Of a DNA stretch of 64,000 nucleotides, positions 29,508-40,905 are shown piece after piece. Source of the stretch: Candidatus Desulfovibrio trichonymphae (GTDB taxonomy: Bacteria; Desulfobacterota; Desulfovibrionia; Desulfovibrionales; Desulfovibrionaceae); the NCBI RefSeq assembly GCF_002355955.1, contig NZ_AP017368.1, forward strand, positions 620,001 to 684,000, read 5' to 3'. Position 1 is the first letter of the stretch; each line of letters opens with the position of its first letter. The position numbers and the translations under genes are program-made. The notes under the pieces were generated by a model. That model ran no database searches and was not told the DNA's origin. It was given only the letters and a program-made list of their open reading frames with translations.

Positions 29508-30314
29508 ATGCGCCTCAAACTGCTGCTGGCCTATGTCGGTTCACACTACAGCGGCTGGCAGATACAGGAAAAACCGAACCAGCCGCCAACGATACAGGGC
29601 GAGTTGGAAGCGGCGTTCCACACCCTTGTCGGCGGCCCTGTGCGGGTGCACGGCGCCGGCCGCACCGATGCGGGTGTGCACGCCCGCGGTCAGGTCGCGC
29701 ACTGTGACGTGCCCGAGGCCAGAGCCGGGCTTGACTGGCGCCGCAGCCTCAATGCCCTGCTGCCGTCTGAAATCCGTGTGCTCATGGCCGGGCCGGAGGC
29801 ACCTGATTTTCACGCCCGCAACAACGTCGCATGTAAAACGTATGCTTACCAGTTCTGGCAGGAAAGAAGCTTCATTCCGCCGGAACTCGCGCCTTTTGTC
29901 TGGAACTGCGGCCCCCTCAACCTCAACGCCATACGCCGGATACTGCCGCGCCTGCTCGGCGAACACGATTTCGCCGGTTTGCAAAACACCGGCACAGACA
30001 TCAAAAACACGCGCCGCACGATCTTTGCCGCAACAATAACAGAATTGCCGCAAATGGAAGATTATCCACAGCACAAGCCCCTTTTGCGGCTTTCCGTAAC
30101 GGCTGACGGGTTTCTCAAGCAAATGGTCCGCAATATAGCCGGATTGTTGGTTGCGTGCGGCCGGGGAAAGCTTGACCAACACTCGGTAACGGAGCTGCTC
30201 AATGTCCGAGATCGCCAGGCGTTGCCTTCAGTGACGGCGCCGGCCGGCGGGCTTGCCCTTGTACGCGTGGAATATGCGCAACCGACGCCGGCCGTTCACA
30301 CCATAAAACAATAG
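29508..30314 (+). CDS. truA: tRNA pseudouridine(38-40) synthase TruA
   Basis: This 268-residue enzyme forms pseudouridine at positions 38-40 in the anticodon arm of many tRNAs. The catalytic aspartate is in GRTDAGVHARGQVAH, and the N-terminal MRLKLLLAYVGSHYSGWQ and C-terminal FLKQMVRNIAGLLVACG are family motifs. The ATG at 29508 is used. A GTG one codon upstream lies at a slightly better distance from the AAGGA site and cannot be excluded. The 3' end overlaps the converging uppP gene by 19 bp. Confidence 0.95.
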   Translation: MRLKLLLAYVGSHYSGWQIQEKPNQPPTIQGELEAAFHTLVGGPVRVHGAGRTDAGVHARGQVAHCDVPEARAGLDWRRSLNALLPSEIRVLMAGPEAPDFHARNNVACKTYAYQFWQERSFIPPELAPFVWNCGPLNLNAIRRILPRLLGEHDFAGLQNTGTDIKNTRRTIFAATITELPQMEDYPQHKPLLRLSVTADGFLKQMVRNIAGLLVACGRGKLDQHSVTELLNVRDRQALPSVTAPAGGLALVRVEYAQPTPAVHTIKQ

Positions 30315-31087
30315 ACAGCCGCGATCAGCAGCCTGTACGCAGCAAAAGGCAGCAGGCTCATACGCCCTACCAGAGCCACAAAAACCTTGACAGCCAGCAG
30401 CGCTGAAACAAAGGCGCCAGCCAGACCCACCAGAAAAAATGGAATGTCCGCCGTGCTGAAAAGGCTCAGGTTTTTGATCAGATCAAAACAGGTAGCCGCC
30501 ACCATAATCGGCACGGCCGCGATAAAAGAATATTCCGCCGACAACGGCCGGCTTGCGCCCAAAAATATGCCCCCCATAATGGTGGCTGCCGAACGCGAAA
30601 ACCCCGGCCAGAGCGCCAGACATTGAAAACAGCCGATGCCGAGAGCAAGCCTGGGCGTCATTTCATCTAGATTTGTACTGGTCGGTCTGAATTTGCGGCG
30701 TTCGATCCAAATCATGCAGACCGCCCCGACCACTAGGGCAATCAGCACCGTGGAGGGCTTAAACAGACAGCACTTGATCAGCGGGTGCAGCAAAAGACCC
30801 AGCACGCACGCCGGCAGTGAAGTCAGCATCAAAAACCAGATGCCGCGCATGCCGGAGAAACGCATGTCAGGCTGCGGTCGGACAAGCCCCCAAAAACGCT
30901 TCCAGTATAAAACAACGACGGCAAGAATTGCCCCCAGCTGGATGACTACCACAAACGTAGCCGCGCGCGCTTCAATAAAATTCAGCAGATGACCGGCCAG
31001 AACAAGATGGCCGGAAGAAGAAACAGGCAAAAATTCTGTCAGCCCTTCCACAATGCTTAAAGTAAACGCTGTGAGCAAATTGTCCAT
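30296..31087 (-). CDS. uppP: Undecaprenyl-diphosphatase UppP (BacA)
   Basis: This 263-residue polytopic membrane enzyme recycles undecaprenyl diphosphate to the monophosphate carrier for cell-wall and glycan synthesis. It shows the two catalytic blocks of the family: EGLTEFLPVSSSGHLVL near the N-terminus and LWPGFSRSAATIMGG near residue 170. About seven transmembrane helices are seen. It is divergent from the small CTG-start gene on its 5' side and converges on truA at its 3' end. Confidence 0.95.
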   Translation of the reverse strand: MDNLLTAFTLSIVEGLTEFLPVSSSGHLVLAGHLLNFIEARAATFVVVIQLGAILAVVVLYWKRFWGLVRPQPDMRFSGMRGIWFLMLTSLPACVLGLLLHPLIKCCLFKPSTVLIALVVGAVCMIWIERRKFRPTSTNLDEMTPRLALGIGCFQCLALWPGFSRSAATIMGGIFLGASRPLSAEYSFIAAVPIMVAATCFDLIKNLSLFSTADIPFFLVGLAGAFVSALLAVKVFVALVGRMSLLPFAAYRLLIAAVYCFMV

Positions 31088-31161
31088 AACACGCCCTGAG
31101 GCTGCGCGCTCTTGCTAAAATACTGCACAACAGCTATGCTATTGAAACAAAGGAGGCGTAA

Positions 31162-31365
31162 CTGTCCACCATCATTCCCCAAAGCGAGCTCGTACGCAAG
31201 GCCTTGGCATATATTGAGGAACAAGGCGCGAACGCCACCGGCAAAAGTCTGGCCGCGCTGCTGGACGAAGCCGGTATGCGTTTTAACCTGACGCCGCTTG
31301 ACACAGCCGCCCTGGAACGGCTGTTCGATGTTGACCAATCTGGCGCGGCGACACCTCCTCCGTGA
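31162..31365 (+). CDS. Small conserved-looking protein with apparent CTG start
   Basis: An open frame of 67 codons runs from CTG at 31162 to TGA at 31363. It is preceded by AAAGGAGGCGTAA, a near-perfect Shine-Dalgarno ending 5 nt before the CTG. An in-frame TAA stands immediately upstream of the CTG, so no earlier start exists. The protein begins STIIPQSELVRKALAYIEEQ and includes ATGKSLAALLDEAGMRFNLT and PLDTAALERLF, a compact helical protein without membrane segments. It resembles small proteins I associate with Desulfovibrio genomes, with no known function. Confidence 0.6.
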   Translation: MSTIIPQSELVRKALAYIEEQGANATGKSLAALLDEAGMRFNLTPLDTAALERLFDVDQSGAATPPP

Positions 31366-31370
31366 AAATA

Positions 31371-32915
31371 TTACATTTTTTCCACGCGTGGAAACAGGTT
31401 TGAGGCTGCGGCCAGCGCTGTTCCCGACGCCAGTCCGTCAAAAGAAGTTGCTTCTTCTTTCAGAGACACCACGGGAGGCGCATTTTTCTCCACGGGACAA
31501 CCCAGTTGTTCGAGCATCCTGCGCGACGCGGCGGGCATGATCGGCCAGAGGAAGAGCGCCGTTTTGCGCATGGCCGCAAGCAGCACATACATGACGGCGG
31601 CAAGCCGCTCCGTGTTCCCATGCTTGTACAGCGCCCATGGCGCCTGACTGTCTACATACTTGTTAAGGGCGCGCACAGTCTCCCAGAGAGACTCCAGGGC
31701 ATGCGCGAACTGAACGTTGCCGAAAAGCTGAATAAAATTTTGCAGAGAGTGCAGGCAGTGCTCCACTACAGCCTCATCGTCCGCGGACAGCCGGCCCCGC
31801 TGCGGCGTGCGACTTCCAAAATACTTGGCCGCCATGGACAGCACCCTGCTGAAAAGATTACCGAGATCATTGGCCAAATCCGCATTGAACCGGCCTGTCA
31901 GCGCCTCTTCGCTGAAACTCGCGTCAGATCCGAAATGCATTTCGCGCAATAAAAAATATCGGAAAGCGTCCGGCCCGAAACGTTGACTCATCTCCACCGG
32001 ATCCACAGCATTCCCCAGAGATTTTGACATCTTCGCGTCACGCGCAAGCCAGTAGCCATGCACATTCAGACGGCCGTACACCGGCAGACCGGCCGCTCTG
32101 AGCATGGTCGGCCAGAAAACAGCATGAGGTTTTAAAATGTCTTTGGCCACAAGATGTTCACCGGGCCAATAACGGTCAAAATCCGCGCCGGCCGGCCAGC
32201 CGATCGCGCTGACGTAATTGATGAGGGCGTCAAACCAGACGTAACAAACGTAATTGTGGTCAAACGGCAGGTCAATGCCCCAGGTCAGACGCGTCTTGGG
32301 ACGGGAAATGCACAAATCTTCCAGCACATCTGATTCCAGCATGGAAAGCACTTCAGCGCGATAGCGCTGCGGCCTTATAAGGTCAGGGTGCTGAGTGATA
32401 TACTCCCGCAGCCAGGGCAAATATTTTGACATTCTGAAAAAATAATTTTTTTCGCTGATGAACTCTGGCTTGCTCCGATGCTGAGGACAAAGACCGTTTT
32501 TCAGTTCCTTGTCCGTGTAAAAACGTTCACAGCCATAGCAATAATGCCCGCCGAACTCGCCGAAATAAATGTCGCCCGCATCGTACACCTTTTGCAGAAA
32601 AGCCTGTACCACACGCTTGTGCGCCTCATCCGTAGTGCGCACAAAACGGTCGTTTGCGACGCCGAGCACCGGCCAGAGAGCCTGAAACCGAGCGCTGACC
32701 GCGTCCGCAAATTCCTTGGGTGTCTGCCCCTGTTTTTCGGCGGCCTGCACAATTTTATCGCCGTGCTCGTCCGTGCCGGTCAAAAAAAGTGTGTCTTCGC
32801 CAAGCATTTTGTGAAAACGGACCATTACATCTGTTACAATGGTTGAATACGCATGCCCGAGATGGGGCTTGGCGTTCACATAATAAATGGGGGTCGTAAT
32901 GAAAAAACTTTTCAC
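31371..32915 (-). CDS. metG: Methionyl-tRNA synthetase
   Basis: This 514-residue class I synthetase charges tRNA-Met. It has FFITTPIYYVNAKPHLGHAYS containing the HLGH (HIGH-type) motif. A zinc-binding knuckle region shows CYGCERFYTD and CPQH, and DAKMSKSLGNAVDP gives KMSKS. An anticodon-binding helical domain follows. The GTG at 32915 is preferred because GGAG precedes it and the family usually begins at this point; an ATG ten codons upstream overlaps the previous gene. There is no C-terminal tRNA-binding EMAP domain. Confidence 0.95.
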   Translation of the reverse strand: MKSFFITTPIYYVNAKPHLGHAYSTIVTDVMVRFHKMLGEDTLFLTGTDEHGDKIVQAAEKQGQTPKEFADAVSARFQALWPVLGVANDRFVRTTDEAHKRVVQAFLQKVYDAGDIYFGEFGGHYCYGCERFYTDKELKNGLCPQHRSKPEFISEKNYFFRMSKYLPWLREYITQHPDLIRPQRYRAEVLSMLESDVLEDLCISRPKTRLTWGIDLPFDHNYVCYVWFDALINYVSAIGWPAGADFDRYWPGEHLVAKDILKPHAVFWPTMLRAAGLPVYGRLNVHGYWLARDAKMSKSLGNAVDPVEMSQRFGPDAFRYFLLREMHFGSDASFSEEALTGRFNADLANDLGNLFSRVLSMAAKYFGSRTPQRGRLSADDEAVVEHCLHSLQNFIQLFGNVQFAHALESLWETVRALNKYVDSQAPWALYKHGNTERLAAVMYVLLAAMRKTALFLWPIMPAASRRMLEQLGCPVEKNAPPVVSLKEEATSFDGLASGTALAAASNLFPRVEKM

Positions 32916-32937
32916 GTCAGGCTCCGAAGGATGAAAA

Positions 32938-33888
32938 TCAGGCATTCTCGTGACGCGTTGCTCTGCGCCGACGCTTGCGGAAAATTTCGGCCGCGGCGGC
33001 GGGTAAGGTACCGCTTGCCTCAACACACCGCGTTGCCGGCATTTGCTGTCCGTCGTCGTCACAGGCTGAATCGTACTCCCTTTCCGGCCGGCGCGGATCA
33101 AGCTCCTTCCACTCTTCCAGCGTCAATTCAACATCTTCATTATTCTCTGTCAGCACCGAAAGCGAATTGCGAAACATATTGGCCCGCACCACCCGCATGC
33201 TCCCCCGGCTTGTCTGATATTTCCTGCCGAGACGCGGGCACTGGCGGTGAAAGCGATCGTAATGATCCTGTTCATACGCGAGGCAACAGAGCAGACGGCC
33301 GCATATGCCGGAAATTTTGGCCGGATTGAGAAAGAGATTCTGCTCCTTCGCCATACGTATGGTTACAGGAGCGAATTTGCGCAGATAGCGCCGGCAGCAG
33401 CACACCATGCCGCAATTGCCCACAGCGCCTACTATCTGCGTTTCATGGCGCACGCCGATCTGGCGCAGCTCTACGCGGGCGTGGTATTCACGCACAAGAT
33501 CCTTGACAAGATCCCGAAAATCAATACGGGCGGGCGCCGTGAAATAAAAAACGAACTTGCTGCGGTCAAAGAACACTTCCACATCAACAAGCTTCATATC
33601 TAGACGGCGCTCTTGTATGCAACAGCGACAAAACGCATCGGCATCACGGGCCAGATTTGCGTTTTCCAGATTCTTTTCCATATCCTCCGGACTGGCCTGT
33701 CGTAAAATAGCAGGTAAGGTCTGCTCATCCACGCCGGACAGCGCACTGATCGGGCCTGACGCCACCTGCACGAACGTAAGTCCCTGTTCGGCGTCAACCA
33801 AAACACAGTCCCCCGCATTGAGTCCGTTAGGGCCGGAATAATAACATGTCTGACAAGGGGGGCCGAGTCGCAGTCCGAATATTGGCAT
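32938..33888 (-). CDS. PSP1-domain protein (RicT/YaaT-like)
   Basis: This 316-residue protein belongs to the PSP1 C-terminal family. Its motifs are FYFTAPARIDFRDLVKDL, EYHARVELRQIGVRHE, GNCGMVCCCRRYL and KISGICGRLLCCLAYE. In Bacillus the homologue RicT (YaaT) works with RicA and RicF in a complex carrying Fe-S clusters that affects RNA processing; many cysteines here are conserved. In this lineage the role is unknown. The ATG at 33888 is preferred over a TTG six codons upstream. It is followed by metG with at most a small gap, so the two are probably co-transcribed. Confidence 0.85.
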   Translation of the reverse strand: MPIFGLRLGPPCQTCYYSGPNGLNAGDCVLVDAEQGLTFVQVASGPISALSGVDEQTLPAILRQASPEDMEKNLENANLARDADAFCRCCIQERRLDMKLVDVEVFFDRSKFVFYFTAPARIDFRDLVKDLVREYHARVELRQIGVRHETQIVGAVGNCGMVCCCRRYLRKFAPVTIRMAKEQNLFLNPAKISGICGRLLCCLAYEQDHYDRFHRQCPRLGRKYQTSRGSMRVVRANMFRNSLSVLTENNEDVELTLEEWKELDPRRPEREYDSACDDDGQQMPATRCVEASGTLPAAAAEIFRKRRRRATRHENA

Positions 33889-33934
33889 AAGCGCAGCCGC
33901 GTCCAACGCGTGGAAAAACGTTTACCTTAAAAAA

Positions 33935-35389: not shown

Positions 35390-36827
35390 AAATCAGAGCT
35401 GGGGTGGACGATTTGACGAGGGACCCCGCGAGGCCGCCGTCGCATACACGCAATCCTGGCGCTACGACAAGGCGCTTTATGCGCAGGATATCCGCGCCTC
35501 GCAGGCTCACGCGAAAATGCTCGGCCGTCAGGGCGTCATCACGCCTACGGAGGCGCGCAAACTGGCGGATGGTCTCGAACGCGTTCTGACGGAAATTGAG
35601 TCCGGCGCCTTTGTCTGGAAGCCGGAGATGGAAGATGTGCACATGAATGTGGAGGCCCGTCTTACCGAAATTTTGGGCGATGTGGGTAAAAAACTGCATA
35701 CAGGACGCAGCCGCAATGATCAGATCGGTCTGACATTCCGCCTCTTTGTTGCAGACAAAATAGCCGTGTGGCGACGAAATGTCGCCGCCCTCTGCGCCGT
35801 GCTGGCCCGACGCGCAGCGGAGCATTGCGAAGACATTCTGCCAGGCTGTACGCACCTGCAGCCAGCGCAGCCCGTGAGCCTTGCACAGCATCTCCTGGCC
35901 TACGCCTGGATGTTCCGCCGTGACGTTCAACGCATTGAAGACGCCTTGAAACGGGTACGTGTTTCCCCGTTGGGCGCGGCGGCGCTCGCCGGCGCAACCT
36001 ACCCCCTTGATCCGCAAAGCGTGGCTGAAGAAGTGGGTTTTTCAGAAATTTACGGCAATTCAATGGACGCTGTTTCCGACCGGGATTTTGTGCTGGAAGC
36101 TCTGTTCTGCGCTGCTGCCGTCATGATGCACCTCTCGCGGCTGTGCGAGGAAATCATTCTCTGGGCAAACCCGGCCTTTGGCTTTGTGCGCCTGCCGGAC
36201 GGCTACGCTACCGGCTCTTCCATCATGCCGCAGAAAAAAAATCCGGACGTGGCCGAGCTTATACGGGGGAAAACAGGCCGGGTTTACGGCGCGCTGACAA
36301 CCATGCTCACGGTTATGAAAGGCCTGCCGCTCGCTTACAACCGCGACATGCAGGAAGACAAGGAGGCATTTCTGGACACCGACAGCACGGTGGATTCTTC
36401 CCTGCGCGTCATGGCCGGGATGATGGAAGAACTGTGCTTCTGCACGGAACGTATGCGCTCGGCCTGCAAGGGCGGCTTTCTCAATGCTACGGAACTGGCG
36501 GACTACCTTGTTGGCAAAGGACTGCCCTTTCGCGAGGCGCACCATGCTGCGGGAAAGGCTGTGTCCCTGGCCGAACGGTGGGGCAAGGGGCTTGAAGACC
36601 TGTCGCTGCAAGAACTGCAGGCAATTGACCCGCACATTGAAAAAGACGTTCACGCGGCTCTGGATTACACAACAGCGGTGCGACGACGTGAAACCCCCGG
36701 CGGCACCGGACCGCGCTCGGTAGCCAGACAGATCAACCAGATCAACCGCTGGCTTGCGGCAATGCAAACGCCACACCATGCAACAAGCAGCGCCATTGCT
36801 GACGGCGACAGTCATGCCCGCCCATGA
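35382..36827 (+). CDS. argH: Argininosuccinate lyase
   Basis: This 481-residue member of the fumarase/aspartase superfamily splits argininosuccinate to arginine and fumarate. It begins [16 protein letters not shown] and has [16 protein letters not shown] and the superfamily signature [16 protein letters not shown]. The ATG at 35382 lies inside the end of argG, and the protein N-terminus is typical from that point. The 3' end overlaps a less well understood gene by about 14 bp. Confidence 0.97.
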
Positions 36828-39165: not shown

Positions 39166-40905
39166 ATGCAGTCAAGAAACACTGTGCGCGCCATCAAGGA
39201 ACGACTGAATATCGTAGACATTGTTCGCCGCTATGTTGAACTAAAACGCAACGGCGCACGATGGACGGCACCCTGCCCTTTTCACCAGGAAACAAAACCC
39301 TCCTTTTTCGTCAATGAGGAACAGGGACAGTTTTATTGCTTCGGATGTCAAGCTTCCGGCGACATCTTTGAATTTTTCAGTAAGATCAACGGGCTGAATT
39401 TTAAAGAAACACTTGAACAATTAGCGGCAGAGGCAGGTGTCAGCCTCGAACGCTCGTCGGGCAGCCACCGCGACAGAGAGCAAGCAGACAAACCTCTTTT
39501 CTCGCGGCGGCAGATGCTGCGCATGTATGAAACCGCCGCCGCCCACTTTGCGGCGGCCCTGAAAAAACAGGACGCGGCTCAATGTCGCGCGTATATTGAA
39601 AAACGAGGTCTTGACAAAGCAATTGTACAACGCTTTGGTCTGGGATGGGCGAGCCGGGAATGGGGCGCCCTTGCAGAAACACTGCGCCGCACCGGATTTG
39701 ACGCGCATTTTTCTGTTGACGCCGGTCTGTTGAACCGATCTGCCAAAGGGCATGTTTTTGATCGTTTTCGCGGCCGCTTGATCTTCCCGATTAAAAATCT
39801 TGCCAATCAGGTCATTGCTTTTGGCGGTCGGATTATTACCTTAGAAGAGGATGAAGCGAAATATATCAACAGTGCCGACACCCCCATTTACAAAAAAGGC
39901 GAACATCTGTACGGATTGTCCCAAGCCAGACGCGGCATCGCCGCTAACGGACGGGCACTGTTGACAGAAGGGTATATTGATGTGCTCACTCTGCATCAGT
40001 TCGGCTACGATAATGCGGTAGGAGTGCTGGGAACGGCACTGACTCCTGAACAGCTTAAACGGCTTTCCGGTTTCACATCGGAGTTTACCCTCCTTTTCGA
40101 CGGTGACCGCGCGGGACGAAAGGCGGCTTTTAGAAGCTGCGAAATGATGCTGGCGCGTGGCCTGAACTGCAACGTGGCGCTTATGCCGGACGGCGAAGAT
40201 ATTGACAGTTTACTGAGAAAAAAAGGCGTACAGACGTTTGAGACATTGCAAAAGCACGCACCCGACGGCCTGCGGTTCTGCATAGACGTGCTGAAGGCTT
40301 TGGCACCGCGCGAGACTGTGGAATGGGCAAAAATTTTTTTGCGGCATCTGCTTCTGCCGGAATTGCTCAGTCCCTACATTTCACGTCTGGCCACGCACCT
40401 GCAGCTTTCCGAGAGCGTTCTGCGCGAAGGACTGGCCGACTGGCATGATCAGAACAGGCCAGCCCGCAAGGCGCAAGGCGCAAACAGCAGCGACGAGAAA
40501 CTAACGCGACAAACTATGCGTGACAAACAAATAATGATGTACGCTGTTCGCTACCCGGACCGTCTTGAAGATCTGCGCTCGCTCGGCGCGGATATGGCTT
40601 TGCAGTCTGCCACTGCGCGCAGCCTTTGGGAAAAAATTGAGGAATGGGGAGAGGAAGCGCATTTTCATCTGGATGAACAGGAAAAAATTCTCTGGTCTCT
40701 TTACAGGGGGGCCGAAGCCGCTCCCCGGGACAATGGCGACAAGGAATTAGAATCTCTAAGCAGTCATCTTAACACGTATTACGATTTTTCACAAAAAACA
40801 TCTGTTTCCGCCGTGTTACGTCAAAACACCGGCACAGGTGATTTTGCATCTGATTTGGATTATCTTCGCGCACTGCAAAAAACCTTGGAGCGAGGGAATG
40901 GGTAA
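39166..40905 (+). CDS. dnaG: DNA primase DnaG
   Basis: This 579-residue primase makes RNA primers at the replication fork. The N-terminal zinc-binding domain has [11 protein letters not shown] and FYCFGC (CHC2 type). The TOPRIM core includes [15 protein letters not shown] and [14 protein letters not shown]. The C-terminal DnaB-interaction domain is weakly conserved. The ATG at 39166 fits the family N-terminus ([16 protein letters not shown]). The last 8 bp overlap rpoD. Its operon position, after rpsU, is the classical arrangement. Confidence 0.96.

Follow-up and report, generated by a model that had tools for sequence, protein, structure and literature searches.

A derived CTG codon at the start position of a conserved small-protein gene in a reduced Desulfovibrio-type genome

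Start-loss pseudogenes occur in the reduced genomes of symbionts. A CTG that does work as a start codon is described for the rep gene of IncF FIB plasmids, where it stands behind a good ribosome-binding site and was demonstrated by mutation, a change to CTC abolishing function; most annotations of this gene misplace the start 14 codons downstream (PMC11983097). The same article, citing Hecht, gives about 10 times less expression for CTG than for TTG. On the evolutionary side, Belinky et al. (2017) report that an ancestral AUG became CUG in 2 of 61,358 cases, versus 363 changes to GUG, and that start-codon switches are linked with the Shine-Dalgarno (SD) sequence and with changes at positions -1 to -3 (PMC5622118). 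For the dnaA gene of Caulobacter, a toeprint was obtained at a CUG accompanied by an SD, and this codon is reported as unused in vivo (PMC8443254). Pairing of CUG with a mutant initiator tRNA, as described in PMC11497404, leaves our reading of the gene presented here unchanged.

In this report, we analyzed a stretch of 64,000 nucleotides, called the window below, which corresponds to positions 620001-684000 in a genome assembled as one contig (1,410,056 bases). This genome is likely that of Rs-N31, 'Candidatus Desulfovibrio trichonymphae', a protist symbiont from the termite gut, for which a complete sequence of 1.4 Mb with 1,082 CDS and 188 pseudogenes was published (PMC7608387). Our main finding is that a small gene of the window has CTG at the homologous start-codon position, and that comparison with its relatives points to an ancestral ATG. 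Such a derived CTG start is a rare event of a kind already known, and is cleanly documented here by a sister genome. We propose, with a probability of roughly 0.6, that the CTG works weakly and is rescued by a strong SD. Among the papers searched on bacterial CTG/CUG or other non-canonical starts and on start loss in symbionts, none was listed that reports this gene.

The small gene resembles the IncF FIB rep gene in its CTG, its good ribosome-binding site and the presence of a canonical codon 14 codons downstream; expression is low for rep and would be reduced for the small gene as proposed here. The two also differ: as described in PMC11983097, rep is a plasmid replication gene whose CTG is backed by mutation as well as N-terminal analysis and probably serves as the start in all close relatives, whereas the CTG of the small gene occurs in one genome and was read from its sequence. 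With the AUG-to-CUG switches counted by Belinky et al., the small gene shares a derived CUG at an ancestral AUG (PMC5622118). The Caulobacter dnaA codon, a CUG with an SD, is a caution against reading the CTG of the small gene as used (PMC8443254).

The features of the locus are given below. The sister is the nearest relative found, G009, a MAG taken as Desulfovibrio sp. Hs463_bin8, with 88-90% protein identity.

30296..31087, minus strand: divergent neighbour, undecaprenyl-diphosphatase-like (uppP), named by reading the sequence
31149..31156, plus strand: Shine-Dalgarno sequence AAAGGAGG, identical in the sister genome
31159..31161, plus strand: in-frame TAA immediately 5' of the CTG; CAA in the sister
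31162..31164, plus strand: CTG at the position homologous to the start codon; the sister has ATG here
31162..31365, plus strand: small gene of a Desulfovibrio-type family, 67 sense codons with stop TGA at 31363-31365, three helices predicted
31204..31206, plus strand: TTG at codon 15, the next canonical codon downstream in this frame
31371..33101, minus strand: convergent neighbour, methionyl-tRNA synthetase-like (metG), named by reading the sequence; longest open reading frame, the true start being probably internal

All that a preliminary description of this DNA had claimed about the layout was recovered, apart from one start coordinate. A perfect SD is followed after 5 nt by CTG, the bases CG lying between AAAGGAGG and the TAA; the TAA directly precedes the CTG in frame, and no in-frame start exists upstream of 31162; the next canonical start is the TTG at 31204, 14 codons on, without a usable SD. 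The coordinates given there also agree with ours, except that the gene had been made to start at 31151, 2 nt inside the SD, which is wrong. Its 67-residue product had been called coherent; the frame contains no stop or frameshift, and could be aligned to homologues from 105 other genomes.

Homologues were searched in 101 and then 79 genomes, representing 119 different genomes, with a match threshold of E 0.001. The small gene was matched at this threshold or better in 106 of the 119, with one match per matching genome, and was present in 54 of the 55 genomes of the genus with a completeness of 90% or more and a contamination not exceeding 5%. Among 62 homologous loci, whose flanks vary in length and in several cases end at contig ends, uppP was found in the flank at 40 and metG at 36. 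At six of these loci (L114, L115, L116, L120, L122 and L133) the small gene lies on the same strand as metG, opposite to the arrangement in the window, and seems to have been inverted in place. The family shares a core motif, DEAGMRFNLxP, every residue of which is kept in the window protein; D35, E36, A37, G38, M39, R40, N42, L43 and P45 are invariant in an alignment of 53 members. Judging by these alignments, the window gene is a real, intact and single-copy member of a conserved Desulfovibrio-type family of small proteins of about 60 aa.

Scans of the window protein against Pfam and NCBIfam gave nothing above cut-off, and the 53 alignment members gave only scattered weak rows against Pfam, the most frequent in 5 of 53. 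A ribbon-helix-helix assignment (Pfam RHH_3) was rejected: it scored 15.9 bits against a cut-off of 21.6 and covered residues 3-16 only, and the structural model is all-helical. This AlphaFold2 model (mean pLDDT 77.4, pTM 0.56) predicts helices at residues 9-24, 30-41 and 45-60. Foldseek found no match to it in the PDB at E 0.001 or better, and a profile search against PDB sequences returned a single weak row (E 0.036). VIA-align ranked the C-terminal part of RsmI first (chain 9pzg_V; Z 5.2, rmsd 2.1, 47 residues aligned), followed directly by homeodomain-like three-helix domains. Such matches may merely reflect a common arrangement of three helices, so we claim no function; a role in nucleic-acid binding would be a weak guess, to which these weak matches to three-helix nucleic-acid-binding domains give a lead.

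The same alignments and model bear on where translation begins. The TTG at 31204 is a canonical codon and opens an open reading frame that a standard caller lists; starting there would give a 53-residue protein. It lacks a usable SD, however: an AAGG at 31198-31201 stops just 2 nt upstream, and at usable spacing no match to the SD exceeds 3 nt. Moreover, conserved residues lie upstream of it, for example R12 (94 of 106 genomes) and A14 (105 of 106), and a start at the TTG would remove the first six residues of predicted helix 1. We thus consider translation from the TTG very improbable.

At the start itself, the codon aligned with the CTG is ATG in 83 of the 106 genomes, and 21 more have an ATG at most 3 codons away, these offsets being differences in N-terminal length; one has GTG. 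The count is lenient, in that ATG was preferred over other codons, and under it the window is the only one of the 106 without a canonical start, from 6 codons upstream to 4 downstream. The sister keeps the gene order of the window over 10 kb, with about 95% DNA identity in most aligned blocks. Its start region reads AAAGGAGGTGCAA-ATG, versus AAAGGAGGCGTAA-CTG in the window. Of the 8 bases that follow the SD up to and including the start codon, 3 differ between the two (-5, -3 and +1); with 0.074 differences per site, as in noncoding DNA, P is about 0.02, by hand arithmetic and post hoc. The difference at -3 falls in the class of positions that Belinky et al. link with start switches, although their coupling analysis, as described in PMC5622118, excluded CUG.

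As a control, 24 genes picked by eye were compared in 25 kb aligned with the sister, several of their starts being unproven longest-frame starts: 20 had the same canonical codon in the sister, 3 were unaligned, and the small gene was the only one with a different codon. An apparent ATG/ATA pair at 40005-40283 was dropped because it merely shadows a dnaG-like gene on the opposite strand. That nearly all homologues have ATG, and that the sister has ATG behind the same SD, indicates that the gene is real and that its CTG arose by an ATG-to-CTG change. By this comparison, the change took place on the lineage to the reduced genome, after its split from the nearest sequenced relative. The preliminary description had offered natural CTG initiation or, as an alternative, an ATG-to-CTG mutation marking a first step of decay, and had proposed looking at the starts of homologues. 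These speak for the mutation: 104 of 106 have ATG on or near this codon, the sister included, and one GTG. It had also named, as an outcome that would count against the CTG start, a conserved region beginning only at a downstream codon; residues before codon 15 are in fact conserved and include the first part of predicted helix 1.

The C might also be an assembly error standing for a true ATG. The relatives all have ATG or GTG, the organism is represented by a single assembly, and an early amplification error could have escaped notice. Against this, the Rs-N31 population is described as having 0.027 SNPs and indels per kb at an adjusted depth of 204 (PMC7608387), so that an error in a well-covered consensus is unlikely if the window is Rs-N31. 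The two further differences from the sister beside the CTG, at -3 and -5, also look like ordinary divergence. We find an assembly error scarcely credible.

The SD of the window matches over 8 nt and is among the 9 longest of the 106, the sister having the longest. Since this strong SD is also found in front of the ATG of the sister, it did not arise in answer to the CTG. Folding of the mRNA around the start is similar in the two genomes (-12.5 kcal/mol in the window, -13.3 in the sister) and therefore explains nothing. In the whole 1.41-Mb genome, AAGGAGG-N4-8-CTG occurs 13 times versus 16 for a reversed-pattern control, and AAGGAGG-N4-8-ATG 23 times versus 9. The SD-CTG motif by itself is thus not beyond chance, and it is the homology, with ATG on or near the CTG, that lifts the case above it. 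Among the 13 strict sites, that of the small gene is alone in having both a frame longer than 20 codons and no in-frame start upstream. Six of the other 12 have such an upstream start, five open frames of at most 20 codons, and one lies inside an argH-like open reading frame (window position 36360, by a check of coordinates). With one qualifying site among 13, nothing points to a general CTG habit, as far as sites with a strict SD can show; the idea of widespread CTG initiation in this genome was rejected for such sites, the 12 others being explained otherwise.

It is conceivable that the ATG-to-CTG change silenced the gene as a first step of decay, too recently for further lesions to have accumulated. 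Loss of the start codon is a plain inactivating change. As in start-loss pseudogenes, a canonical start has been lost in a genome rich in pseudogenes, 188 of them being published for the likely genome (PMC7608387), and the reduced relative G057 (1.6 Mb, 69% complete) gave no match to the small gene. On the other side, the gene is kept by 54 of the 55 good-quality members of the genus, among them three other reduced genomes, the sister (1.4 Mb), G036 and G003 (both 1.6 Mb). Unlike start-loss pseudogenes, the small gene has no frameshift or stop, has kept its strong SD unchanged and has lost none of its strongly conserved residues. Within codons 2-14, residue 4 alone sets the window apart from the sister, and of the two it is the window that keeps the commoner residue of the family. 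Residue 22, which counts against use of the CTG, is G in the window; R stands there in the sister and in 61 of the 106 genomes.

Selection was examined against the sister. No indel separates the two copies over 204 nt, while noncoding DNA aligned between the two genomes has 14.8 indels per kb; the probability of an indel-free gene is about 0.05 if both branches were neutral, and about 0.22 if the window branch alone was, a value compatible with decay. Codons 2-67 hold 8 nonsynonymous and 6 synonymous differences. The resulting pN/pS of 0.46, which decay could also accommodate, is on the high side of, yet inside, the range of 0.07-0.73 found for 23 other compared genes. The shortage of nonsynonymous changes (8 of about 147 sites versus 6 of about 51 synonymous sites) is not significant (Fisher p = 0.20). 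At such a short divergence, these tests are too weak to separate a working CTG from a very recent silencing. Retention of the gene, the intact frame and the strong SD favour use of the CTG, as far as such comparisons go, without proving it. We regard decay as an unlikely explanation, to be taken seriously all the same.

If the CTG is used, a strong and well-spaced SD would position the 30S subunit so that two of the three bases of CUG pair with the initiator fMet-tRNA. Initiation would then proceed at a reduced rate and yield less of a protein whose sequence is normal, in an amount low yet presumably sufficient. Weak selection on the expression level, combined with drift in a near-clonal symbiont population, may have allowed such a mildly harmful change to become fixed. 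IF3, which discriminates against near-cognate start codons, is present and intact in the genome, and this counts against use of the CTG. That a near-universal chromosomal gene moved to a working CTG in the presence of intact IF3, and was tolerated through an SD that was already strong, is in its full form a doubtful proposition. If it is true, erosion of start codons buffered by strong SDs may be a general phase, so far overlooked, on the way to a reduced genome, with genes being turned down instead of lost. Because standard gene callers recognize no start codons other than ATG, GTG and TTG, such a gene would be cut to its TTG or go unnoticed, and a reduced genome may seem to lack a conserved gene. 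The window and its sister, with CTG and ATG behind an unchanged SD, offer a clean natural test of the rescue of CTG by an SD.

Three minor observations were made along the way. A search of the analyzed genome sequence with RF00177 matched no 16S rRNA, versus 6 rRNA genes published for the likely organism (PMC7608387), and stretches of the sequence may be missing. The MetG-like protein, the 3' end of whose gene lies at 31371-31400 on the minus strand, is without a C-terminal stretch of about 90-150 aa, tRNA-binding-domain-like by reading, that is found at the homologous loci L113 and L125; the sister protein is without it as well. Finally, a gene that reads as PSP1-domain-like (window 32938-33906) has the highest pN/pS of those compared, 0.73, and a frame of 322 aa in the window versus 366 aa in the sister; it is possibly under relaxed selection.
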